Positions 9,145 to 51,975 of a stretch of 64,000 nucleotides of DNA are shown here, one piece after another. The DNA is taken from assembly GCA_017432895.1 (NCBI GenBank), contig JAFRIG010000041.1:1-64000 (forward strand), given 5' to 3'. This DNA is from Erysipelotrichaceae bacterium (GTDB taxonomy: Bacteria > Bacillota_I > Bacilli_A > Erysipelotrichales > Erysipelotrichaceae). Below the pieces are notes generated by a model. The model ran no database searches and had not been told where the DNA came from. It was given only the letters and a program-made list of their open reading frames with translations. Numbering within the stretch: the stretch's first letter is position 1; each line of letters begins with the position of its first letter. A program made the position numbers and the translations under genes.

Positions 9145-10482
9145 CTATTTTTCATCACTGACGCCTTCAGCGGCTTCCTTATTGAAAATGATCTTCAAAG
9201 TCAGAAGTATCAGCTTGATATCATCGACAATGCTGTAATTCTCAATGTAGTACAGGTCCAGAAGCAGCTTATCTCTTAAAGAAGTATTGTACTTGCCGTA
9301 GACCTGAGCATAACCGGTCAGACCCGCCTTGACGACCAGACGATATCTGAATTCCGGCATCGTCATACAGATCTCATCATAGATCTCCGGTCTTTCCGGT
9401 CTTGGGCCGACGAACGACATCTCACCATTAAGTATATTGATCAGCTGAGGCAGTTCATCAAGCCTAGTCTTGCGGATGAATCTTCCTACCGGCGTGATAC
9501 GATCATCGTTCTCTTTTGCCAGAACTGCCCCGGTATTCTTTTCGGCATTCATGACCATGGAACGGAACTTGATGATCTTAAACTCTTTTTCATCTTTTGT
9601 TAGTCTAACCTGCTTATAGAAAACATCGCCTGAATCTTGAACTTTGATAGCTATAGCCACTGCCAGCATGATCGGAGAAGCGATGATCAGCAAGATCAAA
9701 GAACCAAACACATCGATAGATCTTTTAACGATCCTTTCAATCTGAGAAGGACCGAACTTGTTGATCTTCAGGATCGGAGAATCAACGATATGCAGGATAT
9801 CGCTGCTGGCAAGCAGCATATCGGTGATACTTGGAACATCATATATCAGCATCTTTCTGGCATAACAAGCCTTAAAGATCTTCTTCTTGTTTTCATGGTG
9901 GACATCCAAAGTGACCACCCCGTCTGTTCCTTCCAGCAATTCATCGAGCTTTTCATAATCGATATCTTTCAGATCGATCGTCTTAACAACGCTGATCGAC
10001 AGATCCCTGATATTATTCAGCTTGCCGATCAGATTGTAATGCGATTCACCATAGATCGCAACAACCTTGACCGGCGGAAAATTCGCTCTGATATAATGAT
10101 TTTCCAGATAGATCAGAACGGTACCTATCACGACCTGGATCAGCAGCATCAGCAGGATAGGCCACAAAGGAATGATCCGCAAAGTGATCAGACACAGGAT
10201 AAAATAGATCAGGATACTGGAAAAGATCAGCGTCAGAGAACTGGAAAGAAACAGATCGGTTGTCGTCGTCTCACCGATCTCAAAAGTATTGAACAGTCTG
10301 CCAAAAAGAATAAACAGGATCAGATAGATCAAAAAAAAGACCAGATAGCCATTCGAATAGTAAAAGAAATAGTTGATATAGCACATCATCAGCGTAGCCA
10401 AAAAGATGATCTCATAAAGAAACAGATTTGCTATATATAGGGCGATCTTGCCGTTTTCTTTACTGTTGAATCTTTCGCTCAT
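9145..10482 (-). CDS. WcaJ-type undecaprenyl-phosphate sugar-1-phosphate transferase (initiating enzyme)
   Basis: The 445-residue protein has four to five N-terminal membrane segments (to about residue 125), a CoA-binding-like soluble domain, and a C-terminal bacterial sugar transferase domain from about 255. That domain shows the basic segment FYKQVRLTKDEKEF, KIIKFRSM, the catalytic Asp-Glu in RLDELPQLINILNGE, SFVGPRPERPE, and AGLTGYAQVYGKYNT. It starts glycan synthesis by moving a sugar phosphate onto undecaprenyl phosphate; the sugar (often Glc or Gal in WcaJ-like enzymes) cannot be read from sequence. It overlaps the upstream GT2 by 4 bp (ATGA) and is the last gene of the unit starting at rfbB. 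A second initiating enzyme of the short PglC type is at 42225-42830. Confidence 0.88.
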   Translation of the reverse strand: MSERFNSKENGKIALYIANLFLYEIIFLATLMMCYINYFFYYSNGYLVFFLIYLILFILFGRLFNTFEIGETTTTDLFLSSSLTLIFSSILIYFILCLITLRIIPLWPILLMLLIQVVIGTVLIYLENHYIRANFPPVKVVAIYGESHYNLIGKLNNIRDLSISVVKTIDLKDIDYEKLDELLEGTDGVVTLDVHHENKKKIFKACYARKMLIYDVPSITDMLLASSDILHIVDSPILKINKFGPSQIERIVKRSIDVFGSLILLIIASPIMLAVAIAIKVQDSGDVFYKQVRLTKDEKEFKIIKFRSMVMNAEKNTGAVLAKENDDRITPVGRFIRKTRLDELPQLINILNGEMSFVGPRPERPEIYDEICMTMPEFRYRLVVKAGLTGYAQVYGKYNTSLRDKLLLDLYYIENYSIVDDIKLILLTLKIIFNKEAAEGVSDEK

Positions 10483-11441
10483 TTGATCTTTTTCAGTTCT
10501 TTTTTATTTGATTCGGAAACGATATAGTGCGGCCTGTTTTTGACCTCCATATACGTCTTGCCAATATATTGTCCAATAATACCCAAAGCAAACAGCTGCA
10601 TACCACCCATCAGCAGGATGACGCAGATCAGTGTCGCCCAGCCCTGGACCGGATCGCCAAACAGGGCATATTTAATAATGATGAAAATCAGATAGATAAA
10701 CGCAAAAAACGTCGTCAGCAGGCCGAAGAACGACGCCAGATCCAAAGGTGCGTTGGAAAAATTGACGATCCCGTCGATCGCATATTTGGCCAGACCCCAG
10801 AAACTCCACGAAGTCGTTCCCGCGACTCTTTCCACATTTTCATATTCGATCCAATAGGTATTGAAACCCACCCATGAGAAGATGCCCTTGGAAAAACGGT
10901 TATATTCCGACATCGCAATGATGGCCTCTGCCATATCCCTTTTCATCAGACGGAAATCACCGGCCCCATCGACCATCTGTGCATCAGAGATCAGGTTGAT
11001 CAGCTTGTAGAATTTGCGGGCAAACCAGGTTCTGATCTTTGAATCGCCTTTTCGATCGACTCTGCGACAGGCTGCACAATCATATTCTCCGGTCTTAAGA
11101 GCCTCCAGCATCTGTTTGATCAGCACAGGCGGATGCTGAAGATCAGCATCGATAAAACCGATATAATCACCCTCGGCATTGCACAATCCGGAGTACATTG
11201 CCGATTCTTTACCGAAATTGCGGGAAAAAGACAGATACACGATATGCTGATCCTTTGCCGAGAGTTCTTTCATGACCTTCAGCGTTCCATCAGTAGAACC
11301 ATCATTGACCAGGATTAATTCGTAGTCTTCTTTCAGAGAAGATAACACCTCGGTGATCTTTTCATAGAAAAAAGGCAAAGCTTCTTCTTCGTTAAAACAA
11401 GGAACGATGATTGAAATCTTTTTTTCTTTTTTTGCCATCAT
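10479..11441 (-). CDS. GT2 glycosyltransferase, DPM1/GtrB-like with two C-terminal membrane segments
   Basis: The 320-residue protein has a GT-A fold: ISIIVPCFNEEEALPFFY at the start, VNDGSTDGT, the metal-binding DADLQHPP, and DFRLMKRDM. Two C-terminal membrane helices at about 235-260 and 270-295 (SFFGLLTTFFAFIYLIF and TLICVILLMGGMQLF) place it in the family that loads a sugar onto a polyprenyl phosphate for use outside the membrane. It overlaps its neighbours by 4 bp on each side. The neighbouring GT-C-like protein at 12333-13766 is a reasonable user of such a lipid-linked sugar. A close copy lies at 46107-47066. Two in-frame ATGs are adjacent (11441, 11438). Confidence 0.85.
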   Translation of the reverse strand: MMAKKEKKISIIVPCFNEEEALPFFYEKITEVLSSLKEDYELILVNDGSTDGTLKVMKELSAKDQHIVYLSFSRNFGKESAMYSGLCNAEGDYIGFIDADLQHPPVLIKQMLEALKTGEYDCAACRRVDRKGDSKIRTWFARKFYKLINLISDAQMVDGAGDFRLMKRDMAEAIIAMSEYNRFSKGIFSWVGFNTYWIEYENVERVAGTTSWSFWGLAKYAIDGIVNFSNAPLDLASFFGLLTTFFAFIYLIFIIIKYALFGDPVQGWATLICVILLMGGMQLFALGIIGQYIGKTYMEVKNRPHYIVSESNKKELKKIK

Positions 11442-40548: not shown

Positions 40549-41636
40549 TTTACTGCCTTTTCAATAGCTCTTAAATATTCATTGATCACGATATTGCGAT
40601 CAAACTGCTCCTCGACCTTCTTGCGGCCATTGAGACCCAGCTGTTTTCTTTCTTCTGCCGAAAGACCAATAAAGATCCTGATCTTTTCGACCAGATCTTC
40701 TTCATCATTCTGTCTGACGACAAAACCGTTGACTTTGTCATCTACGATCTCTCTACAGCCGGGACGATCGGTCGTGATGATGGGCCTGCCGCAGGCCAGA
40801 GACTCCAGAAGCACATTCGACATTCCCTCAGGATAATAGGTCGGATGTATCGTGCAGTCGATCTTCTCATAGATATCGGTCATTTTATCGACCAAACCAT
40901 GATATATGATGACATCATTTTTCACAAGTTCTTCAACTCTTTCCTTGTAATTGTCTTCGTAATCTCCACAGACATGGAACCTGGTATACGGATATTCCTT
41001 TCTGATCTTCTCGGCAGCCGAAGCATACAAGTCAAAACCCTTCTCCTTCATCAGCCTGCCTACATAGACAAAATCGATCGTCTCATGTACGGGATAAGGC
41101 ATATAACTGTACTGATTCAGATTCACTCCGGAACCCGGAATGAGCCGGTAATTGTCTTTGACGACGCCTTGCCTGATCATGAAATCTCTGTTGGCTTCAT
41201 TCTGAAAGAAGACGGTATCCGCTTTTCTTAAGCCCATTCGGTAAAGAAAAACCGTGATCTTCTGCATCAGACCGCCATTCTCGACAGCCGAACCCAATCC
41301 GGTCACATTCGCTATGTAGGGTATCCTGTTTTTCTGACAGGCCAAACCTCCGTAGACATTGGGCTTGATCGTATAGGACAAGACTGTATCGGGCTGATAT
41401 TTTCTGATCATCTCATCATAACGTTTCAGCAGCTTCAGATCGGTGATCGGATTAGTTCCTCTTCTTTGGATCGGCGTCTCAATAAAGGTACAGCCCATCT
41501 TTGTCATATCTTCCACAAAAGAGCCGAAAGGAAGGGAGATGAGAACTTCATTTCCATCTTTCAGCAGTCTTTCCAGCAGTTCCTTGCGAAACTTGAATAA
41601 ACCCACGTCGTTATTGGCCAGAATCAGGATCTTCAT
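40545..41636 (-). CDS. GT4-type glycosyltransferase, PglA/CapM-like
   Basis: The 363-residue GT-B protein begins MKILILANNDVGLFKFRKEL and has FIETPIQRRGTNPITDLKL, VLSYTIKPNVYGGLAC, YIANVTGLGSAVENGG, FVYVGRLMKEKGFDLY and TYYPEGMSNVLLESLACGRPIITTDRPGCRE. This matches the PglA/CapM branch that adds the second sugar onto undecaprenyl-diphospho-diNAcBac or FucNAc. Its position directly after the PglD and PglC homologues supports that. It overlaps the acetyltransferase by 4 bp. Confidence 0.87.
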   Translation of the reverse strand: MKILILANNDVGLFKFRKELLERLLKDGNEVLISLPFGSFVEDMTKMGCTFIETPIQRRGTNPITDLKLLKRYDEMIRKYQPDTVLSYTIKPNVYGGLACQKNRIPYIANVTGLGSAVENGGLMQKITVFLYRMGLRKADTVFFQNEANRDFMIRQGVVKDNYRLIPGSGVNLNQYSYMPYPVHETIDFVYVGRLMKEKGFDLYASAAEKIRKEYPYTRFHVCGDYEDNYKERVEELVKNDVIIYHGLVDKMTDIYEKIDCTIHPTYYPEGMSNVLLESLACGRPIITTDRPGCREIVDDKVNGFVVRQNDEEDLVEKIRIFIGLSAEERKQLGLNGRKKVEEQFDRNIVINEYLRAIEKAVK

Positions 41637-42223
41637 TTTTTCTTTACCGGAACACCGATATAGGTGCCCTTCTCTTTGATATCATCGATGACCACTCCTC
41701 CGGCACCGATGAGCACGTCATCGCAGATCGAAACATTATTCACGATCACAGCACCGATCCCTGCAAACACTCTGTCACCGGTTATGACCGTGCCGGCTGA
41801 ATGGGAGGCAACGGAAAAATGATTGTACTTGCCGATGATGTTATCATGGTCAATGGAGGAACAGGTGTTGATTATCGTCCCATCACCGATCACAGTCCCG
41901 GGATTGATCACGGCATTAGCCATGACGATGACACCATTGCCCAATGTAACATCTTCACCGATCACTGCACTTGGATGGATCAGTGTAACGATGTCATCGA
42001 ACCTCTTGCTGATAAGTTCTCTGGTCTTGTTGTCGCCGATAGCGATGAAAAGATCGTAGTCCTTTTCTTCAGGGAAAACATGGATCACTTGAAAAGGACC
42101 AAACTTGTTTTTTACCTGGTCATCATCATAAAAGATAATATCTTCATATCCGTTTAATTTCGCAATATCGGCAGCGACCTTCCCATGTCCGCTGGCTCCA
42201 TATATGATCAGTTTCTTCTTCAT
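41633..42223 (-). CDS. pglD: PglD-like UDP-4-amino-sugar N-acetyltransferase
   Basis: The 196-residue protein has an N-terminal nucleotide-sugar binding part (LIIYGASGHGKVAADIAKLNG, FIAIGDNKTR) and a left-handed beta-helix of hexapeptide repeats (IHPSAVIGEDVTLGNGV onward) with the catalytic His in SSIDHDNIIGKYNHFSV. It acetylates the C4 amine to give UDP-N,N'-diacetylbacillosamine. The frame is open 20 codons upstream, but ATG at 42223 has a GGAAA ribosome site, follows the previous stop by one base and starts at the family's usual position. PglF and PglE homologues are in the same operon. Confidence 0.92.
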   Translation of the reverse strand: MKKKLIIYGASGHGKVAADIAKLNGYEDIIFYDDDQVKNKFGPFQVIHVFPEEKDYDLFIAIGDNKTRELISKRFDDIVTLIHPSAVIGEDVTLGNGVIVMANAVINPGTVIGDGTIINTCSSIDHDNIIGKYNHFSVASHSAGTVITGDRVFAGIGAVIVNNVSICDDVLIGAGGVVIDDIKEKGTYIGVPVKKK

Positions 42224-42224
42224 C

Positions 42225-42830
42225 TCAGTTATTTCCTTTAAATTCTTCGGCCGTCGAAGAACCCTTCGCATTGATCCCTTCATGGCTCAGAACGTTCTTC
42301 ACCGTTTTTAAAATGATCCTGATATCACCAAGCAGTGTGATGTTGTTGACATAGTCGATATCATATCTGAACTTATCCTGCCAGGACAGGAGGTTGCGGC
42401 CATTGACCTGAGCCAGGCCGGTAAGTCCGGGCCTGACATCATGGCGATGTCTTTGTTCCTCATTGTACAAAGGAAGATACTTTACCAGCAAGGGCCGCGG
42501 TCCGACGATAGCCATATCACCTTTCAAAATATTGAACAGTTCCGGAAGTTCATCCAGGGAAGTACTTCTGAGTTTTTTTCCATAACTGTTGAGTCTGATA
42601 TCATCACTAAGATAATTTCCGTTTTCATCTTTTTCTTCAGACATCGTCCTGAATTTGATCAGTCTGAAGATCTTTTCGTCTTTGCCGGGTCTTTCCTGCG
42701 TAAAGAAAGGATTGCCCTTCATATTCTTGTAACCCAGGACGATCAAAACGACAAAAACCGGCGCCAAAACGATCAGCGCCGTTAACGATAAGATAAAATC
42801 AAATAATCTTTTAAAGAAATTTCTGTACAT
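42225..42830 (-). CDS. pglC: PglC-like undecaprenyl-phosphate sugar-1-phosphate transferase
   Basis: The 201-residue protein is the minimal form of the family: one membrane-dipping helix (LFDFILSLTALIVLAPVFVVL), FTQERPGKDEKIFRLIKFRTM, the catalytic Asp-Glu in TSLDELPELFNILKGD, VGPRPLLVKYLPLY and RPGLTGLAQVNGRN. Size and motifs match C. jejuni PglC, which moves phospho-diNAcBac to undecaprenyl phosphate; the diNAcBac pathway enzymes beside it make that substrate likely. It starts directly at the aminotransferase stop. Confidence 0.93.
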   Translation of the reverse strand: MYRNFFKRLFDFILSLTALIVLAPVFVVLIVLGYKNMKGNPFFTQERPGKDEKIFRLIKFRTMSEEKDENGNYLSDDIRLNSYGKKLRSTSLDELPELFNILKGDMAIVGPRPLLVKYLPLYNEEQRHRHDVRPGLTGLAQVNGRNLLSWQDKFRYDIDYVNNITLLGDIRIILKTVKNVLSHEGINAKGSSTAEEFKGNN

Positions 42831-44108
42831 CTATTCAAAACATTCTCTGATGACTTCGATGACCATATCCTGTTCCTCTTCAGTCATCTTGATATCGGAA
42901 GGAAGACACAGTCCTCTGTTGAAGATATCCATGCCGACATCAAGTACTTTGCCCTCATCGATATAGGCATTTGACTGACCTCTGCCGTTTCCTTTGGCCG
43001 TGACGAACTTGTTGGACCTGTAGATCGGCTGCATATGCATCGGCTTCCAGATCGGCCTGCCCTCCATATTGCACTTGGCCAGGTTTTCTAAGATCTCCGT
43101 TGGACATGACTTGCCTTTTTCATGGATATACAAGGCCTTTTTGTCATCTCTTACCTGTTTGCACATGGCATCTTCATCAACGATCAGACAGCTGAGCCAG
43201 AAATTCGGAACAGAGTTCTCTTTGTCATAAGGATTCATTTTTACCGGCAATCCCCTTAGTCCTTTTTCATAGCGCCGATAGATTGCAGTCTTTCTTTCGA
43301 TATGCTGATCAAGATAAGGGATCTGACCCCTGATGACCCCGGCTACGATGTTGGACATGCGATAATTGTAGCCCAGCTCTTCATGCTGATACCAGAAGGC
43401 ATCTTCTCTAGACTGCGTGGACCATTTTCTGACCTTGTCGGCGTCTTCTTTTGAGTTTGTCAAAAACATGCCACCGGCAGAACCCGTGATGATCTTGTTG
43501 CCGTTGAATGAAATACAGCTGTAATCACCAAAAGTACCGGTCTCAACCCATTCTCCTTTATATCTGTATTTTGCACCTAAAGATTCACAGGCATCTTCAA
43601 TGATCAGGATACCGTGTTCATCACAGATCTTTCTGATTTCTTCGATCTTGCCAGGCGTGCCATAGAGATGGACCATGACATAGAGCTTGACATCCGGATA
43701 TAATTCGATCGCCTTTTTCAAAGCCTCGGGATCACTATTCCAGGTATCGTATTCCGTATCAATGAAGATCGCTTCCCCACCTTCATAGCCGATCGGATTG
43801 ATCGAAGCATCGAAAGTCATATCGGAAGCGAAGGCCCTTCTTCCCTTCAGAGAACCTTCATTGGGTCTTGGCTGGCCATAGAGTTTTTCGCCGGCAAGTC
43901 TGGTCGCCAGATGCAAGGCTGAAGTGCCGGTACCTAAACCTACCGCGTATTTGACTCCGATATATTCGGCCATGAGCCTTTCGACTTCATCGATATTCTT
44001 GCCTACAGTCGTGACCCAGTTGGTATCAAAGGCTTCTTTGACGTATTTCTCCTCGTCTCCGTGCATCGTGCCGGTCGACAGGAAGATCATTTTTTCAGCT
44101 TTCTTCAT
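42831..44108 (-). CDS. pglE: PglE-like UDP-4-keto-sugar aminotransferase (DegT/DnrJ/EryC1)
   Basis: The 425-residue PLP enzyme has GLGTGTSALHLATRLAG, FIDTEYDTWNSDP, HLYGTPGKIEEI, IEDACESLGAKY, and the PLP lysine in SFNGNKIITGSAGGM, followed by ELGYNYRMSNIVAGVIRGQI. It converts the 4-keto product of PglF to the 4-amino sugar. Its position between the PglF and PglC/PglD homologues supports the bacillosamine assignment. It starts directly after the pglF stop. Confidence 0.9.
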   Translation of the reverse strand: MKKAEKMIFLSTGTMHGDEEKYVKEAFDTNWVTTVGKNIDEVERLMAEYIGVKYAVGLGTGTSALHLATRLAGEKLYGQPRPNEGSLKGRRAFASDMTFDASINPIGYEGGEAIFIDTEYDTWNSDPEALKKAIELYPDVKLYVMVHLYGTPGKIEEIRKICDEHGILIIEDACESLGAKYRYKGEWVETGTFGDYSCISFNGNKIITGSAGGMFLTNSKEDADKVRKWSTQSREDAFWYQHEELGYNYRMSNIVAGVIRGQIPYLDQHIERKTAIYRRYEKGLRGLPVKMNPYDKENSVPNFWLSCLIVDEDAMCKQVRDDKKALYIHEKGKSCPTEILENLAKCNMEGRPIWKPMHMQPIYRSNKFVTAKGNGRGQSNAYIDEGKVLDVGMDIFNRGLCLPSDIKMTEEEQDMVIEVIRECFE

Positions 44109-46049
44109 TCACTTGTCCTCATTTCTTTTATATGTTGTGACAACTTCTTCCACCAGCTCAAATATTCGATCATCATTGTTGTGGGAAACGATATGCAACC
44201 GTTTCAGCTGATCCAGGAATTTGTCTTCATCGATATCCAAAGGCTTGCCGACAAAGATCAGATCATTATCCGTCTTCTTGTTTCCTTCAGCAGCCATCAG
44301 TTTTTCTTCGTAAAGTTTCTCACCCGGGCGAAGTCCCGTATATACGATCCTGATATCCTCATCCGGTCTTAAACCCGATAATTTGATCAGGTTCCTGGCC
44401 AATGTATCGATCTTGACCGGCTCACCCATATCCAGGATAAAGATCTCACCGCCCTTGGCATAGACACCGGCCTGCAGGACCAGTGATACAGCCTCCGGAA
44501 TGGTCATGAAATAGCGGATGATGTCCGGATGTGTGACCGTAACCGGACCGCCGGCCTCGATCTGCTTCTTGAAAAGAGGTATGACCGAACCGTTGGAACC
44601 CAAAACATTGCCGAAACGGACGGCAACGAACTCCGTTTTTCCTTTCAGTTCTTTGACGCTTACCTCAGAAAAACAGTCTTCGACAACGGAAAGTTTAGCG
44701 GTCGTTTCATTCTTGATCAGCTTATCGAAAGTCTGAATGACCATCTCACACATTCTTTTGGAAGCACCCATGATGTTGGTGGGATTGACAGCCTTATCCG
44801 TCGAGATCAGTACGAAACGCTCCACTTCGTATTTGACAGCGGCATAAGCCACTTTGAAGGTGCCGATCGTGTTGTTTTTGATCGCTTCATTGGGCGAAGC
44901 CTCCATCAGAGGCACGTGTTTATGGGCTGCCGCATGATAGACGACGTTTGGACGATAAAGGCTGAAGACGTGATCGACTCTTTTGGAATCCCGCACTGAA
45001 CCGATCATGACCACCAGGTCGAGTTCGGGATGATTGCGCTTCAGTTCCTGTTGTATATCATAGGCGTTGTTTTCATAGATATCGAAGATCACCAGACGCT
45101 TCGGCGAGTGTTTTGCGATCTGCCGGCAGAGTTCCGAACCGATGGAACCGCCGCCTCCGGTCACCAGAATGACCTTGTCATTGATGAAATCAAAGATCTC
45201 CTCATTATTGACCTTGACCACATCCCTGCCCAGAAGGTCCTCGATGGCCACATTCTTCATCATATTGACCGAAACATCCCCTTTGACGATCTGCTGAATA
45301 CCGGGCAGGACTTTGATCTCGCAATCCGTCTCCCGGCAGATATTCAGGATGTCTCTTCTTTGTGCAGCCGAAGCCGAAGGAATGGCAAAATAGATTTCAC
45401 TTATGTTGTATTTCTCGATATTTTTCAGGATATCATCTCTGCCACCGACGACCGGAACACCTTCAATGTATCTTCCGACCTTATTGGTATTATCATCGAT
45501 GATACAGACGACCCGAGAACTTGATTCGATGTTTTTGTTGACATCTCTAAGGATCGTCATTCCGGCATCCCCTGCCCCTATCAGCATGACCCGATTAAGA
45601 TTCTTGCTGTTTCGCTGCTGTCTTTTGATCATCAGGATAAAGCGATAAGAGAATCTGATGATCGCCGCAAAGATCATCTGCATAATAAAACCGATCACAT
45701 GGAAAGAAAGCGGCATCCTCGCCCCAAAGATCCTGGTCACGGCATAATTGAACACACCACAGATGAGATTGGAGAGGATGATATTGGTCAGCTCATTATA
45801 TGAGGCAAAACGCCAGATGCTTCTGTACAATTTGAAAAGCCAGTAAATAAAGATACAGACCAGAGCATAGGGAATTATCAGTTTATAATAAACATTAAGA
45901 TAAGCGATCGGTATCCTGGAAAAGCGGAAATCGAACCTGAGCCAAAGGCCAAAAAAGTATGAAAAAGCGATCGTCACAAAATCATACAGCATCAATATGA
46001 ACGCGATCACCTTCCAATGCTCAATATAAAAAGCACGAGATCTACTCAT
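44109..46049 (-). CDS. pglF: PglF-like membrane UDP-GlcNAc 4,6-dehydratase
   Basis: The 646-residue protein has four N-terminal membrane segments (to about 125), a first Rossmann-like part (RVMLIGAGDAGMTILRDV), and a second SDR domain from about 290: VTGGGGSIGSELCRQI, YHAAAHKHVPLMEASPNEAIKNN, and the Ser-Met-Lys type catalytic segment STDKAVNPTNIMGASKRMCEM. It makes UDP-2-acetamido-2,6-dideoxy-4-keto-hexose for diNAcBac. The ATG has no spaced ribosome site; a TAAAAT ends 6 bases upstream, a weak promoter sign. A 57-base gap separates it from the next gene upstream. Confidence 0.93.
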   Translation of the reverse strand: MSRSRAFYIEHWKVIAFILMLYDFVTIAFSYFFGLWLRFDFRFSRIPIAYLNVYYKLIIPYALVCIFIYWLFKLYRSIWRFASYNELTNIILSNLICGVFNYAVTRIFGARMPLSFHVIGFIMQMIFAAIIRFSYRFILMIKRQQRNSKNLNRVMLIGAGDAGMTILRDVNKNIESSSRVVCIIDDNTNKVGRYIEGVPVVGGRDDILKNIEKYNISEIYFAIPSASAAQRRDILNICRETDCEIKVLPGIQQIVKGDVSVNMMKNVAIEDLLGRDVVKVNNEEIFDFINDKVILVTGGGGSIGSELCRQIAKHSPKRLVIFDIYENNAYDIQQELKRNHPELDLVVMIGSVRDSKRVDHVFSLYRPNVVYHAAAHKHVPLMEASPNEAIKNNTIGTFKVAYAAVKYEVERFVLISTDKAVNPTNIMGASKRMCEMVIQTFDKLIKNETTAKLSVVEDCFSEVSVKELKGKTEFVAVRFGNVLGSNGSVIPLFKKQIEAGGPVTVTHPDIIRYFMTIPEAVSLVLQAGVYAKGGEIFILDMGEPVKIDTLARNLIKLSGLRPDEDIRIVYTGLRPGEKLYEEKLMAAEGNKKTDNDLIFVGKPLDIDEDKFLDQLKRLHIVSHNNDDRIFELVEEVVTTYKRNEDK

Positions 46050-46106: not shown

Positions 46107-47066
46107 TTATCCCTTATTTGCGTTTTTTTCAATATTGGTCCTGGCAACGATATACTGAGGCCTCTTTTTAGTCTCCATATAGGTCTTGCCGATATACTGG
46201 CCCATGATGCCAAGACACAGAAGCTGAATGCCGCCGATAAAGATGATGACACACATCGTCGATGCCCAGCCGGCGACCGGATCGCCGAACAGCAGTTTTC
46301 TGACAATGATGAACACCAGCATGACAAAAGCAATTATCGTCATCGTAATACCGAAACCGGAGGCCACTTCCAAAGGAAATTCCGAGAAATTGATGATACC
46401 GGAGATCGCATATCTGAATAAACCCCAGAAAGACCACTTGGTGGTACCGGCGACTCTTTCCACATTCTCAAAAGGCAGCCAGTAAGTTCTAAAACCGATC
46501 CAGCCAAAGATACCCTTGGAAAAGCGATTGTATTCACTCATGGACACGATCGCATCGACCATCTCCCTTCTCATCAGCCTGAAATCTCTTGCGCCATCGA
46601 CGATCTCAGCATCCGAGATCATGTTGATGATCTTATAGAACATTCTGGCAAAAAAGGATCTGACTTTCGATTCACCCTTTCTGGTCACCCTTCTGGTCGC
46701 GACCGAATCGTATTCTCCGCCTTCAAGGATCTCAAGCATCTGTGGCAGCAAAGCCGGAGGGTCCTGCATATCCGCATCCATGACCGCCACATAATCCCCC
46801 TTGGCATGACAGAAACCGGCATACATAGCCGCTTCCTTGCCGAAATTCCTGGAGAAAGAGATATAACGGACATGTTCATCCTTCTCAGATAGCTGCTTCA
46901 GGATCCTGAAGGTATCGTCTTTTGAACCATCATCGACCATGACGAACTCATAATCGACATTCATAGTCGCAAGAACTTTGCTGGCCTCCTCGTAGAAGAT
47001 CGGCAAGGCCTCCTGTTCGTTATAACAAGGAACAATCAGTGAGATCAGTTCTTTCTTTTTCCTCAT
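46107..47066 (-). CDS. GT2 glycosyltransferase, DPM1/GtrB-like with two C-terminal membrane segments
   Basis: The 319-residue protein has LISLIVPCYNEQEALPIFY, VMVDDGSKDDT, VMDADMQDPP, ARDFRLMRREM and two C-terminal membrane helices. By eye it is well over half identical to the GT2 at 10479-11441 along its whole length, including SEYNRFSKGIF and ENVERVAGTT, so the two are copies. It likely makes a polyprenyl-phosphate sugar. ATG at 47066 has a GGAG site at 7-8 bases; a GTG at 47072 is too close to it. It is the last gene of the acyl-modification cassette. Confidence 0.86.
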   Translation of the reverse strand: MRKKKELISLIVPCYNEQEALPIFYEEASKVLATMNVDYEFVMVDDGSKDDTFRILKQLSEKDEHVRYISFSRNFGKEAAMYAGFCHAKGDYVAVMDADMQDPPALLPQMLEILEGGEYDSVATRRVTRKGESKVRSFFARMFYKIINMISDAEIVDGARDFRLMRREMVDAIVSMSEYNRFSKGIFGWIGFRTYWLPFENVERVAGTTKWSFWGLFRYAISGIINFSEFPLEVASGFGITMTIIAFVMLVFIIVRKLLFGDPVAGWASTMCVIIFIGGIQLLCLGIMGQYIGKTYMETKKRPQYIVARTNIEKNANKG

Positions 47067-47078
47067 GAACACACTCCT

Positions 47079-47612
47079 TTAAATAGAATAATACGGAATA
47101 TTTTTATCCAGCAAACGAATGAAGAACTTATGATCGACGATCTTCATTCCGACACTCTCATACAGATGCAAAGCCTTAATGTTCTTCCTGGCGCAGACCA
47201 GGCAGACATTCCTGCAGCCATGCTTTTTTATGATCGCAAAGATATGATCCATGATCTTCTTCGCATAACCCCGTCCCTGATACTCTTCATCGACTTCCAT
47301 GCGAAAGATGAAACTGTCTGCCTCTTTGACTTTATACAGCTTTTCGTCACCGCCCTTGAACATGATCCAGCAGGAACCGACCTGCTGGCCGCTGCCGTTG
47401 CGGAAACAATAACCCTCGGCATAAGGATAATCGTTCAATATCCATTTCCGCGTCGTATTGCCAATCGCATTGCCAACCTGTTCACAGTTGTTTTTATTGA
47501 TCCTGATCGTCAGCAATTCGTTGTCTGAGAGCTCGTGATCATCAAGATCAATCTTCAGAACATAGTGATCGAAAGTCTCAAACAGGATCTTATTTTTCAG
47601 TTTGATCTTCAT
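47079..47612 (-). CDS. GNAT-family N-acyltransferase
   Basis: The 177-residue protein has the acyl-CoA binding core FRMEVDEEYQGRGYAKKIMDHIFAI (Q-x-x-G-x-G/A motif) followed by NVCLVCARKNIKALHLYESVGM, the standard motif A/B of GNAT enzymes. It lies 3 bases after a ketoreductase and 6 bases before a GT2. The substrate is not readable; with the thiolase and ketoreductase beside it, transfer of a 3-hydroxybutyryl group from CoA to an amino sugar is a good hypothesis. Acetylation of an unrelated target is the alternative. Confidence 0.82.
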   Translation of the reverse strand: MKIKLKNKILFETFDHYVLKIDLDDHELSDNELLTIRINKNNCEQVGNAIGNTTRKWILNDYPYAEGYCFRNGSGQQVGSCWIMFKGGDEKLYKVKEADSFIFRMEVDEEYQGRGYAKKIMDHIFAIIKKHGCRNVCLVCARKNIKALHLYESVGMKIVDHKFFIRLLDKNIPYYSI

Positions 47613-47615
47613 ACG

Positions 47616-48338
47616 CTAAAGACTCATCCCGCCATTAACATCGATCACCGTACCGGTGATGTAAGAAGCCTTATCAGAAGCCAGGAAGCAGATCAGATCC
47701 GCCACTTCTTCCGGTTCTCCCAGCCTTTTCAGCATCGTCCTATCGGCGAATTTCTTCAAAAGATCCTCGGGTACCTTCTTTACCATATCCGTCAGGATAT
47801 AACCAGGCGCTACCGCATTGACCCTGACCTGAGCCCCTTTTCTGGCGAACTCTTTGGCAAAAGACTTGCACATGCCGATCAGTCCGGCCTTGGAAGCCGC
47901 ATAGTTGGCCTGACCGATATTGCCTTGTTCACCGACGACTGAACTCATCGCCACGATAGAACCGTATCCCTGTTCTTCCATTAAAGGACCAAACAGTTTT
48001 ATCAGCCGAAAGACTCCTTTAAGGTTGGTGTCGATGACCAGGTCAAAATCATCTTCCGACATCTTTCTGGTCATGGCATCCCTGGTGATCCCGGCATTGG
48101 CGATCAGTACATCGACCCTACCATGTTTAGAAAGCACATCTTCATAAAGCTTCTGGCACGAAGCTGTATCCGTGACATCCAGTTCATGATATAAGATATT
48201 GTCACCATAGAAATCCGCTTTGGAACGGGAACAGGCATAGACCAAAGCGCCTTCTTCCGCCATCTTTAAAGCGATCTGCTTGCCGATGCCTCTTGACGCC
48301 CCACTGACAACTACGATCTTATCCTTCAGTAATTCCAT
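47616..48338 (-). CDS. FabG/PhaB-like 3-oxoacyl reductase (SDR)
   Basis: The 240-residue protein has VVSGASRGIGKQIALKM, the NAG turn (IANAGITRDAMTRKM), SSVVGEQGNIGQANYAASKAG (Ser and Tyr-x-x-x-Lys) and a C-terminal SYITGTVIDVNGGMSL, as in FabG and PhaB. It starts 4 bases after the thiolase gene. Next to a thiolase and with no acyl carrier protein, synthase or other fatty-acid genes, reduction of acetoacetyl-CoA to (R)-3-hydroxybutyryl-CoA is more likely than a fatty acid role. GITRDAMTRKM is shared by both groups, so sequence alone does not settle this. Confidence 0.88.
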   Translation of the reverse strand: MELLKDKIVVVSGASRGIGKQIALKMAEEGALVYACSRSKADFYGDNILYHELDVTDTASCQKLYEDVLSKHGRVDVLIANAGITRDAMTRKMSEDDFDLVIDTNLKGVFRLIKLFGPLMEEQGYGSIVAMSSVVGEQGNIGQANYAASKAGLIGMCKSFAKEFARKGAQVRVNAVAPGYILTDMVKKVPEDLLKKFADRTMLKRLGEPEEVADLICFLASDKASYITGTVIDVNGGMSL

Positions 48339-48342
48339 CTTT

Positions 48343-49554
48343 CTAATTCCTCTTCAATAATAAAGCAGCACCCATTCCGCCACCAATGCACAAGGAAGCG
48401 ACACCGTACCTGATATCGCTGTTTCTGTTCATCTCATAAGCCAAAGTCGTCGTGATACGAGCTCCGGTCATACCTAACGGATGACCCAGTCCCAGACCTG
48501 AACCATAACGGTTGCAGCGGTCCGTCAGATATTTCTCATCTACGCCGTATTCCTCTTCCAGCAGTTTGAAACAGCCAAGCACCTGCGCGGCAAATGCTTC
48601 ATTGATCTCGAAATAATCGAGTTCTTTAAAAGAAACACCGCTTTTTTGACACAGTTCTCTGATCGCATAATACGGACCAAGACCCATGAATTGCGGATCT
48701 AGTCCGACCACCGCATGATCGACGATCTCCGCAAGCGGATCGATGCCGTTTTTCTGGCAGTAATCCTGGGAAGCGATCAGCAGGAAACAGGCGCCATCAT
48801 TGATACCGGAAGTATTGGCAGCCGTGATCGTGCCTGTCTCGTCTTTGATAAAAGTCGGTTTGAGCGAAGACATCTTTTCCCTTGTCGAATCCCTGTTAGG
48901 AAACTCATCGGTATCAAAGGCGAACTCCCTGCCCCGATAATCCCTGAGATTCACCGGAACGATCTCATCTTTGAAGACTCCCGAATCTACCGCTCTGATC
49001 GCTCTTTGCTGAGTCAGATAGGCATAATCATCCTGTGCCTTTCTGCTGATCCCGTATTCGCGGGCGATGTTTTCGGCCGTGATGCCCATGTGAACTCCGG
49101 AAAAAGAATCTGTCAATCCATCCGAGACCATCAGATCGGTCATTTCGAAATTGCCGAACTTCTTGCCAAGCCGCAGAAAAGTATTGGTCGCATAAGGGAT
49201 GTTGGACATGAACTCCACACCACCGGCCAGGATGAGATCCTTGCCGCACTCTATCTCGTTGCAGGCATTGATGATGGCCTGCATGCCAGATCCGCAGACC
49301 ATATTCACGGAATAAGCCGGAACACTCTGGTCGATACCCGAATTGATGGCGATCGCCCTGGCAACGCCCTGCCCCATTCCGGCGGAAATGACGTTGCCTA
49401 CGATGACCTGCTGCACATCTTTCAAATAAGCTGCCGAAAAGCCCTTTTCGATCAGCTGCTTAGAAACATCTACAACATCTTTTTCATATAAAGAACCCAA
49501 AAATCTGCCGATCGCCGTCCTTTTGGCTTCGATAATAAACTTCTTTCTATTCAT
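48343..49554 (-). CDS. Acetyl-CoA acetyltransferase (thiolase)
   Basis: The 403-residue enzyme has all catalytic residues of biosynthetic thiolases: Cys87 in VNMVCGSGMQAI, His358 in GLGHPLGMTGAR, and Cys389 in CIGGGMGAALL. EINEAFAAQVLG is also present. It joins two acetyl-CoA to acetoacetyl-CoA. A thiolase is unusual in a glycan locus. It is packed between a glycosyltransferase (4 bp overlap) and the ketoreductase, so it is expressed with them. No PHB synthase or butyrate genes are nearby, which points to acyl supply for glycan decoration. Confidence 0.92.
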   Translation of the reverse strand: MNRKKFIIEAKRTAIGRFLGSLYEKDVVDVSKQLIEKGFSAAYLKDVQQVIVGNVISAGMGQGVARAIAINSGIDQSVPAYSVNMVCGSGMQAIINACNEIECGKDLILAGGVEFMSNIPYATNTFLRLGKKFGNFEMTDLMVSDGLTDSFSGVHMGITAENIAREYGISRKAQDDYAYLTQQRAIRAVDSGVFKDEIVPVNLRDYRGREFAFDTDEFPNRDSTREKMSSLKPTFIKDETGTITAANTSGINDGACFLLIASQDYCQKNGIDPLAEIVDHAVVGLDPQFMGLGPYYAIRELCQKSGVSFKELDYFEINEAFAAQVLGCFKLLEEEYGVDEKYLTDRCNRYGSGLGLGHPLGMTGARITTTLAYEMNRNSDIRYGVASLCIGGGMGAALLLKRN

Positions 49555-50564
49555 ATTACTTCCTCATCATTGATGATCGCCATGATCTTCTCAAGCCTGT
49601 TAGCCCAGGTATGGTACTTCATAAAGTGATCATAGTTTCTATTGACGATCGTCCAGTACTTCCCTTCATCGTTTTCCAGTTCATCGATCTTTTCATCGAA
49701 ATCTTTGAGATCCTCATCAAACTCGATCATACCGTCTTCCGGAAACAGTTCATCAAAGATCAAAGGCTTCTTGCCGATGATCAGCGTCTTGCAGGCGATC
49801 GATTCATAATACCTTCCCGTCATCGCGCAGATATCTCCGGTCTTGTGCGGACTTTCATAACATTTGGGGATGCAGACGATGTAGCGGGAACGGTTGATCT
49901 CTTTTACCAGATCGTTCAGATCGGGAAAAAGAGCTTCCTTTTCTTTCCGGCGATAGACGTAATTGTCATTGTTGTCTTCCAAACCCTTTTTATCCAGATA
50001 AGCCAGGATCTTTGCGTGCATACCAGGATTGACTCTCCCCATCTGCATGAATCTCCTGGTCTTGGGAATGTTCAGATCTTTGAAGAAATAGGTATTGGCG
50101 CTTTGCGCTACCCAATAACAGTTGTCATAAAGCTGACTGAAATACAGATAATTCTGTTTAAAAGAAAGGATCAGGTAGTCGGGCTTTAGATCATCGATGA
50201 TCCCGGTCCATCTTTCATATTCCGGTTCCCAGCAGTCCCAGATATAGATGGCCAATTTATTGCCATGTTTCTGAATGTTCTTCAGATGATGGATGTTTGC
50301 CATGAGATAGTTGGCCGACATGGCGATATAAAGATATACGGCATCTTCTCTTTTTTTATAAGTGAAAGGATCGCAAAGCGGTCTCAAATGTACCTTATTC
50401 AGCAGACGATTGAGGCCTTTCACAAAAAAACTGAGATATCTGATCTCTACATTCCCCTTCCCGTATTCCAGAAAAGCCCTCTCTTGTCCAAGTATCGCAT
50501 CATGAGACAATGGTCTGGAAATAAAAGACTTCTGTTCGGAAACGATAAGCAGCTTTTTCATCAT
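49551..50564 (-). CDS. CgeB/GT1-like glycosyltransferase
   Basis: The 337-residue protein has an N-terminal half with IYIWDCWEPEYERWTGIIDDLKP and a C-terminal half with RFMQMGRVNPGMHAKIL, SRYIVCIPKCYESPHKTGDICAMTGRYYESIACKTLIIGKKP and YWTIVNRNYDHFMKYHTWANRLEKI. The last part is the familiar end of glycosyltransferases that look like CgeB (motif with R-Y-Y-E and a final H-T-W). It overlaps the WbqC gene by 4 bp (ATGA). Donor and acceptor are unknown. Confidence 0.7.
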   Translation of the reverse strand: MMKKLLIVSEQKSFISRPLSHDAILGQERAFLEYGKGNVEIRYLSFFVKGLNRLLNKVHLRPLCDPFTYKKREDAVYLYIAMSANYLMANIHHLKNIQKHGNKLAIYIWDCWEPEYERWTGIIDDLKPDYLILSFKQNYLYFSQLYDNCYWVAQSANTYFFKDLNIPKTRRFMQMGRVNPGMHAKILAYLDKKGLEDNNDNYVYRRKEKEALFPDLNDLVKEINRSRYIVCIPKCYESPHKTGDICAMTGRYYESIACKTLIIGKKPLIFDELFPEDGMIEFDEDLKDFDEKIDELENDEGKYWTIVNRNYDHFMKYHTWANRLEKIMAIINDEEVI

Positions 50565-51304
50565 CTTATCTCACAGACGTTTCCAGCAAAATCATAGACA
50601 GGCTCATTGCCCACCATAATGACCTTTTTTGCTTCAGCAAAACCGACATTCATAAAAAGATCCAAAGCCGACAGATGCGAAATGAAGTCTTCGCTTCTTC
50701 TTTGCGGATATTGAGGATGGTGATAATCGTTGAAAACGACCTTGATGCCCGCTTTTTCAAACGCTGTCATATCCAGGTAATCTCTTCCGCTGGGACCGGC
50801 AATATAGACATCAGTATCGACAGCCTTGCAGATATCCAGGATCAGATCGCTCTTTAAGCCGTTGACCTTCAATTGTGAAGATCTGACATACTCCGGAAAG
50901 ATCTCCAGCTTTTCGCAAAAAGCCTTAATGATCGAAATATTGATCTCACAAAAAAGATCCGTATCCACGTTCATCGCTTCTTCAAGGACCGGATAGACTT
51001 CATTGAAATAAGGATACTTTCCATAGCTCATCCTGATCGTCTGCAGATACTTCTCTTTCCACTTTGCATTCTTGGGATCGCTGGCGATGAGAGTCGTGGC
51101 GATCGAACCATCCATGTGGCCTTTATTGCTTATGGGAATGGAAAGCCATTGTACGCCATTGGTTCCTAAGATACGGTTGCGATTCTGAAAATAATTCTTC
51201 TCATACTGCACGGAATCCAGGATGACGAATTTATCCGCTTTCGCGATCTTATTGAACAGGCCCAGCCAGGGCAAATGTTCGGGCTGATGTATCGTTATGA
51301 TCAT
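50561..51304 (-). CDS. WbqC-family protein
   Basis: The 247-residue protein begins IITIHQPEHLPWLGLFNKIAKADKFVILDSVQYEKNYFQNRN-type sequence, the hallmark of the WbqC family, followed by WLSIPISNKGHM and YIAGPSGRDYLD. WbqC proteins occur in O-antigen and flagellar-glycan loci and are suspected to act in amino- or acyl-group modification of sugars; a defined reaction is not known to me. It lies between the PIG-L deacetylase (8-base gap, AGGAG site) and a glycosyltransferase in the acyl cassette. Confidence 0.88.
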   Translation of the reverse strand: MIITIHQPEHLPWLGLFNKIAKADKFVILDSVQYEKNYFQNRNRILGTNGVQWLSIPISNKGHMDGSIATTLIASDPKNAKWKEKYLQTIRMSYGKYPYFNEVYPVLEEAMNVDTDLFCEINISIIKAFCEKLEIFPEYVRSSQLKVNGLKSDLILDICKAVDTDVYIAGPSGRDYLDMTAFEKAGIKVVFNDYHHPQYPQRRSEDFISHLSALDLFMNVGFAEAKKVIMVGNEPVYDFAGNVCEIR

Positions 51305-51312
51305 TTTTACTC

Positions 51313-51975
51313 CTACAGCTTGCTGTCTTCAGCAAAATTCAGTTCCAGTCTCAGGATCTCAAAAGCCTCGGCATATTTTTTGCCTATCTCATAACCCCTG
51401 AAACCGCAGCGGCATTTGACGCCTTTGATCCAGTCTTCACCGCCGAACTTCTTATATTCGGATTTATGCTTCTTCAATGATGCGATCTTGACATCGATCG
51501 TCTCATCGATCCCGACATACATATCCGGCTTAAAAGCGACATAAGATCTCCCCGAAGGCTGTATCGGTTCGAAGAAAAAGACCGTATTTTTTCTTCGCGC
51601 TGCAGCGATTGTCGCCTTTGCCACTCCCTCATGAGCCTGATGAGTATCGAATGGATGATGGGTAAAGATCACATCCGGATCATAGTCCGCCATCACCACA
51701 TCGATCGCGTTGACCACATCCGATCTGAATGGGATATCCTTGGTCTCAAAATCAAGGATCTCAATATCCTCGATTCCCAGTGTCTTTAAAGCCTCGACAC
51801 CTTCCTTGACCGCTACATCATCAGAACGCTGGACCTTGCCTTCTTTATTGGTATAACCTGATTTGGACATGATCAGTGCCTTGACCTGGTGGTTGTTTCT
51901 GATCGCTTTGGCGAGCGTTCCCCCGCAGGCCAGTTCTATATCATCAAGATGAGCACCTACAACTAATATTTTCAT
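51313..51975 (-). CDS. PIG-L/LmbE-family N-deacetylase
   Basis: The 220-residue protein has the zinc motif VGAHLDDIELACGGTLAK at the start and FTHHPFDTHQAHEG (His-x3-Asp-x-His form) near 110, as in MshB, BshB and PIG-L. These enzymes remove an N-acetyl group from GlcNAc-type sugars. It is the first gene of the acyl cassette, with a promoter at 52002-52010. Removing an acetyl here would free the amine that the GNAT enzyme could re-acylate; that order is inferred. Confidence 0.88.
   Translation of the reverse strand: MKILVVGAHLDDIELACGGTLAKAIRNNHQVKALIMSKSGYTNKEGKVQRSDDVAVKEGVEALKTLGIEDIEILDFETKDIPFRSDVVNAIDVVMADYDPDVIFTHHPFDTHQAHEGVAKATIAAARRKNTVFFFEPIQPSGRSYVAFKPDMYVGIDETIDVKIASLKKHKSEYKKFGGEDWIKGVKCRCGFRGYEIGKKYAEAFEILRLELNFAEDSKL

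Follow-up and report, generated by a model that had tools for sequence, protein, structure and literature searches.

Enzymes that place 3-hydroxybutyrate on bacterial amino sugars offer the closest comparisons for a minus-strand gene run that we analyzed in a 64,000-nucleotide stretch of DNA (the window; positions 1 to 64,000 of contig JAFRIG010000041.1) from an Erysipelotrichaceae bacterium. FdhC and QdhC, from Escherichia coli O103 and Acinetobacter, are sugar N-acyltransferases by which an amino sugar receives (R)-3-hydroxybutyrate. PMC4869667 names FdhC as the 3-hydroxybutanoyl transferase in E. coli O103, and a title cited in PMC12273574 places it among the GNAT-superfamily sugar N-acyltransferases, but the available portions of these sources name no dedicated acyl-coenzyme A (CoA) supply genes in those clusters. 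Similarly, the Acinetobacter qhbCB/gdr module for QuiNAc4NHb uses a dehydratase, an aminotransferase and an acyltransferase to give a 4-(3-hydroxybutanoylamino) sugar, the type of product proposed here, although no thiolase or reductase is named in it (PMC9676051, PMC3628348). In the viosamine island of Pseudomonas syringae, dedicated sugar-cluster genes (VioS, VioR and an acyl carrier protein, ACP) make 3-hydroxybutyryl for a 4-amino sugar (PMC3927599); a ketoacyl-ACP synthase III and ACP serve there, whereas the window encodes a thiolase that presumably works at the CoA level, and no PF00109 ketoacyl synthase was found in its genome. The PhaA and PhaB enzymes catalyze the same two-step chemistry that we propose, but here no polyhydroxybutyrate (PHB) synthase was found and the context is a glycan locus.

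The run includes genes for a PIG-L-type N-deacetylase, a WbqC family protein, a glycosyltransferase, a thiolase, a FabG/PhaB-type short-chain dehydrogenase/reductase (SDR) and a GNAT N-acyltransferase (Table 1). In the reading that we favor, the thiolase would convert two acetyl-CoA to acetoacetyl-CoA, the reductase would turn this into (R)-3-hydroxybutyryl-CoA, and the adjacent GNAT would move the acyl group onto the free amine of a surface-glycan amino sugar, with PIG-L and WbqC forming a neighboring amine-modification pair outside the acyl-CoA supply. We infer the catalytic steps, their stereochemistry and the acceptor. The 4-amine of UDP-4-amino-4,6-dideoxy-GlcNAc, which the PglF-like and LegC-type enzymes would provide, is rated the most likely acceptor, the other candidates being an amine that PIG-L frees and an amino acid that WbqC attaches. 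On balance we consider it probable, with some reserve, that thiolase and reductase are a dedicated CoA-level supply and that the GNAT acylates an amino-sugar amine.

All six open reading frames are intact, and the families given to them in the initial annotation of this DNA were borne out, with every gene over its Pfam cut-off (PIG-L, WbqC, Glyco_trans_1_2, Thiolase_N/C, adh_short_C2 and Acetyltransf_1). Comparison with the nearest relative indicates purifying selection, with pN (nonsynonymous) far below pS (synonymous) pairwise in each of the six genes and a dN/dS of about 0.05 where dS is unsaturated. The thiolase also passes the TIGR01930 cut-off, and the three catalytic residues first attributed to it (C87, H358 and C389) are indeed present; they align with those of solved acetyl-CoA acetyltransferases and, together with the NEAFA motif, do not vary among the window protein and two relatives. 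By sequence the enzyme belongs to the acetyl-CoA acetyltransferase family, and acetoacetyl-CoA formation is its predicted activity. The SDR catalytic residues S133, Y146 and K150 are present in the reductase.

The source genome (G000) is a draft with 78 contigs totaling 2.29 Mb and a completeness of 93.5%. Its nearest named records are the Erysipelotrichaceae metagenome-assembled genomes (MAGs) RGIG2701, from goat omasum, and RUG14902, and the source is a gut bacterium, probably of the rumen. The window thiolase is the only PF00108 match in this genome; no 3-hydroxyacyl-CoA dehydrogenase scores over cut-off, and the PHB synthase PhaC was not found. Because the thiolase is the sole one and neither these genes nor any other ketoacyl synthase were detected, the pair is most simply explained by CoA-level chemistry that serves the glycan locus. 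The bacterium seems to lack genes for building fatty-acid chains and for making butyrate. A housekeeping FabG of fatty acid synthesis was considered and rejected, as no chain-elongating ketoacyl synthase was found as its partner, the sole PF00109 match being the thiolase itself (FabH and ACP were not searched for). Other SDRs are present in the genome, one of which adjoins an apparent elongation factor P (EF-P) gene and may therefore be an EF-P-modifying reductase.

A comparison across 316 genomes of the order gives G153, a goat-omasum relative (82% identity), and G176 (73%) as the sources of the closest thiolases, all others being at most 51% identical; a Lachnospiraceae MAG (L062) has a thiolase that is 65% identical. 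These four thiolases all lie in surface-glycan-type loci and form one clade with support of 100/100, separate in the tree from thiolases in bcd-etf-hbd-crt neighborhoods; the tree tool flagged the attachment of this clade to another long branch as possibly spurious, a warning that does not concern the clade itself. Of the more distant thiolase loci examined, several are in neighborhoods of the bcd-etf-hbd-crt type, and others adjoin a reductase, a hydrolase, a KASIII-like gene and ABC genes (names read from protein starts). A separate thiolase-FabG-hydrolase-KASIII-like set is seen in other genera of the family (L049, L050, L054 and L057), with adjoining ABC transporter genes in several. No relatives of the thiolase were found in viral contigs, and plasmid-borne thiolases are all less than 60% identical to it. 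Members of the thiolase and FabG families often serve in butyrate and PHB pathways, so the pair could belong to ordinary central metabolism and lie in this locus by chance. We give this very little credence and reject a butyrate or PHB role: no PhaC and no 3-hydroxyacyl-CoA dehydrogenase over cut-off were found, the clade stands apart from the butyrate-locus thiolases, and co-localization with glycan genes is kept in a second genome.

The GNAT adjoins the thiolase-reductase pair both here and in G153, and a different GNAT does so in L062, where the row comprises a DegT aminotransferase, GNAT, thiolase, reductase, FdtA and a flippase-like gene. Membership of the GNAT superfamily is indicated by Pfam and by a predicted structure of moderate confidence (predicted local distance difference test score, pLDDT, 72.7), which has the GNAT fold and matches glucosamine N-acetyltransferases, mycothiol synthase and WecD among many others. 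No chain labelled FdhC appears among the matches listed for the window GNAT (E to 10; the best 60 of 65) or for the L062 GNAT (E to 10), and FdhC was not compared directly. By analogy and adjacency, the GNAT is the likeliest 3-hydroxybutyryl transferase. The initial annotation had also proposed this assignment, with thiolase and reductase as the source of (R)-3-hydroxybutyryl-CoA, and it is supported by context, clade and gene absences; a dedicated supply that feeds glycan acylation is the most plausible role of the two enzymes.

The six genes had further been described as a tightly packed unit with its own promoter. The packing is confirmed, as neighbors overlap by 4 bp or are spaced by 3–8 bp, but a sigma-70 consensus scan detected no promoter-like site in the divergent gap (1.1 expected by chance). 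The run also extends past the GNAT: after a gap of 6 bp comes a GT2 gene, and then the PglF, LegC-type, PglC and PglD genes.

Table 1. Genes of the run, with proposed functions and the basis of each assignment.
Feature	Coordinates	Strand	Basis
PIG-L/LmbE-type N-deacetylase	51313..51975	-	Pfam; below BshB1 cut-off
WbqC family protein, BshC-like predicted fold; proposed amine ligase	50561..51304	-	Pfam; AlphaFold2 model
Glycosyltransferase, Glyco_trans_1_2	49551..50564	-	Pfam; upstream of GNAT in three genomes
Thiolase, acetyl-CoA C-acetyltransferase type; proposed 2 acetyl-CoA to acetoacetyl-CoA	48343..49554	-	Pfam, TIGR01930, catalytic residues, clade
FabG/PhaB-type SDR; proposed acetoacetyl-CoA to (R)-3-hydroxybutyryl-CoA	47616..48338	-	Pfam, catalytic residues
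GNAT N-acyltransferase; proposed 3-hydroxybutyryl transferase to sugar amine	47079..47612	-	Pfam, model, adjacency to supply genes
GT2, PgfS/ArnC-like; directly downstream of GNAT in same gene run	46107..47072	-	Family models
PglF-like UDP-GlcNAc 4,6-dehydratase	44109..46049	-	Family models
LegC/PseC-type 4-aminotransferase; proposed source of free 4-amine	42831..44108	-	Family models
PglC-like initiating phosphoglycosyl transferase	42225..42830	-	Translation; relatives match Bac_transf protein 9145-10482 at ~41%
PglD-like N-acetyltransferase	41633..42283	-	Family models; not found in G153

The segment between a plus-strand glycosyltransferase gene and PglF is an island that varies in gene content across the genus. 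In the window genome it holds PIG-L, WbqC, glycosyltransferase, thiolase, reductase, GNAT and GT2. A search for the six-gene order, as first suggested, found it in G153, without GT2. The island of G147 has PIG-L, WbqC, glycosyltransferase, GNAT, formyltransferase and GT2; those of G149 and G172 have PIG-L, WbqC and formyltransferase; G176 has PIG-L, then WbqC, then formyltransferase; G167 has PIG-L and WbqC only; and G158 and G161 have the formyltransferase without PIG-L or WbqC. The idea that no complete set is known in Gram-positive bacteria needs qualifying, given this second Erysipelotrichaceae genome and the thiolase-reductase-GNAT combination in a Lachnospiraceae genome. The proposal that all six genes form one functional cassette, in which PIG-L frees the amine, is not borne out in that form: relatives carry PIG-L and WbqC together without thiolase, reductase or GNAT, often near a formyltransferase, and the six genes are thus not one obligate cassette.

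The step that caps the amine looks exchangeable among the relatives, though these are draft genomes. Capping-type genes in the same cluster include PglD, the formyltransferase and FemAB-like genes. A close PglD was found in G000, G158, G162 and G167 but not in G153, G149, G147 or G161, some of which have a relative with about 30% identity, of the kind adjoining NeuB. G000 and G153 lack a dedicated formyltransferase and have only a distant Fmt-like match. The G153 locus has PglF, LegC and PglC, and with no detectable PglD and no dedicated formyltransferase, the GNAT is its evident capping enzyme. A FemAB-family protein adjoins PglC in G157, FemAB-like proteins were recognized from their first residues only in G165, G144, G169 and G166, and ATP-grasp-like genes were identified by eye in G168 and G176. 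A C-terminal formyltransferase remnant lies beside WbqC in G173 (C170, 3331-3441; L090), with 76% identity over 38 residues and an in-frame stop, which suggests loss of the dedicated formyltransferase or an assembly error.

WbqC had been assigned no role, and the papers searched gave nothing on the function of this widespread family. The protein matches only PF08889 in Pfam and nothing in NCBIfam, which places it outside the BshC sequence family, and no solved structure matches it by sequence. Its AlphaFold2 model (pLDDT 92.4) gave no significant match with Foldseek, but VIA-align 2 ranks BshC (4wbd) first, with Z 15.1 and a root-mean-square deviation of 3.3 over 224 residues, followed by tyrosyl-tRNA synthetases at Z 8.4 and less. 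As BshC is the cysteine-adding enzyme of bacillithiol, the model suggests that WbqC may be an amine ligase, although a fold alone does not prove function. In every relative within the genus with a neighborhood readable on both sides WbqC adjoins PIG-L, and in other genera it adjoins ATP-grasp and DegT genes. Relatives of WbqC are also encoded by 105 stretches in a viral collection, the best being 40–42% identical (L138-L217).

An alternative explanation for the locus follows from this fold: PIG-L would free an amine on a glycan sugar, onto which WbqC would ligate an amino acid, and 3-hydroxybutyrate would then be placed by the GNAT on the amine of that residue. In bacillithiol and mycothiol synthesis a glycosyltransferase, a deacetylase and a ligase act in that order, followed by a GNAT in mycothiol. 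The window genes show the same kinds of protein as BshA-BshB-BshC and MshA-B-C-D (glycosyltransferase, PIG-L deacetylase, ligase-like fold and GNAT), and mycothiol synthase is among the matches to the GNAT model, although the GNAT fold is generic. The constant PIG-L/WbqC pairing and the ATP-grasp and DegT neighbors of WbqC fit this scheme, as does the formyltransferase, an amine-capping type of enzyme, in the same island of four genomes, but the formyltransferase also occurs without the pair. The locus further differs from the thiol pathways in lying in a polysaccharide cluster, in having no BshC family (PF10079) match in the genome, and in a PIG-L below the BshB cut-offs (68.8 bits against 182.5 for TIGR04001 and 45.4 against 195 for TIGR04000); a bacillithiol pathway itself was rejected for want of BshC. 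We consider the amino-acid cap possible but rather unlikely. Its broader version, in which mycothiol-like steps have moved into a surface polysaccharide, with 3-hydroxybutyrate made by thiolase and reductase as the cap and formyl used instead in relatives, is a tentative and unlikely proposal.

Several observations weigh against direct acylation of the 4-amine from a dedicated CoA-level supply. No CoA-specific model recognizes the reductase above its cut-off: it falls short of the PhaB models (TIGR01829, 241 of 302 bits; NF042966, 211 of 436 bits) and of TIGR01830, and is assignable only as a FabG-type SDR. PglD of the window genome could already cap the 4-amine, and G147 (88% complete) has a GNAT 60% identical to that of the window with no thiolase found, so that GNATs of this type may draw on a different acyl-CoA; both points keep the alternative acceptors alive. 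All gene absences, moreover, rest on draft MAGs. In G176, the thiolase-reductase pair is followed directly by an SGNH-like protein (our label; it has no family match), a DltB-like MBOAT and an acyl-CoA (AMP) ligase, which suggests that a 3-hydroxybutyryl donor can serve O-acylation. The donor could thus feed membrane O-acylation by an MBOAT/SGNH-like system further along the contig, where MBOAT and AMP-ligase genes lie downstream of the window; however, in G153 as in the window genome it is a GNAT, not the MBOAT genes, that adjoins the pair, and we regard this as distinctly improbable.

The window also encodes a LytR-CpsA-Psr protein, a polysaccharide-type ABC exporter, LicD and a flippase-like gene, which together identify a surface-glycan region. 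A second GT2 gene of the same type as that of the run is located at 10479-11441; relatives of the two cross-match at about 62% identity, which suggests duplicated glycan machinery. Downstream of the window, positions 64001-84000 of the contig (L134) contain a legionaminic-type set of NeuB (PF03102), NeuC-type genes and an apparent CMP-sugar synthetase, and, in addition to the MBOAT and AMP ligase, an FkbH-domain protein and a MaoC-like dehydratase.

N-3-hydroxybutyryl sugars are already known, and their supply by thiolase and reductase from within a glycan locus would, if the favored reading is true, be a distinct route to such sugars in a Firmicute apparently without ketoacyl synthases. The gene combination would also be a genomic marker that predicts the 3-hydroxybutyryl group in gut bacteria, and the BshC-like model of WbqC gives a widespread family a testable function.

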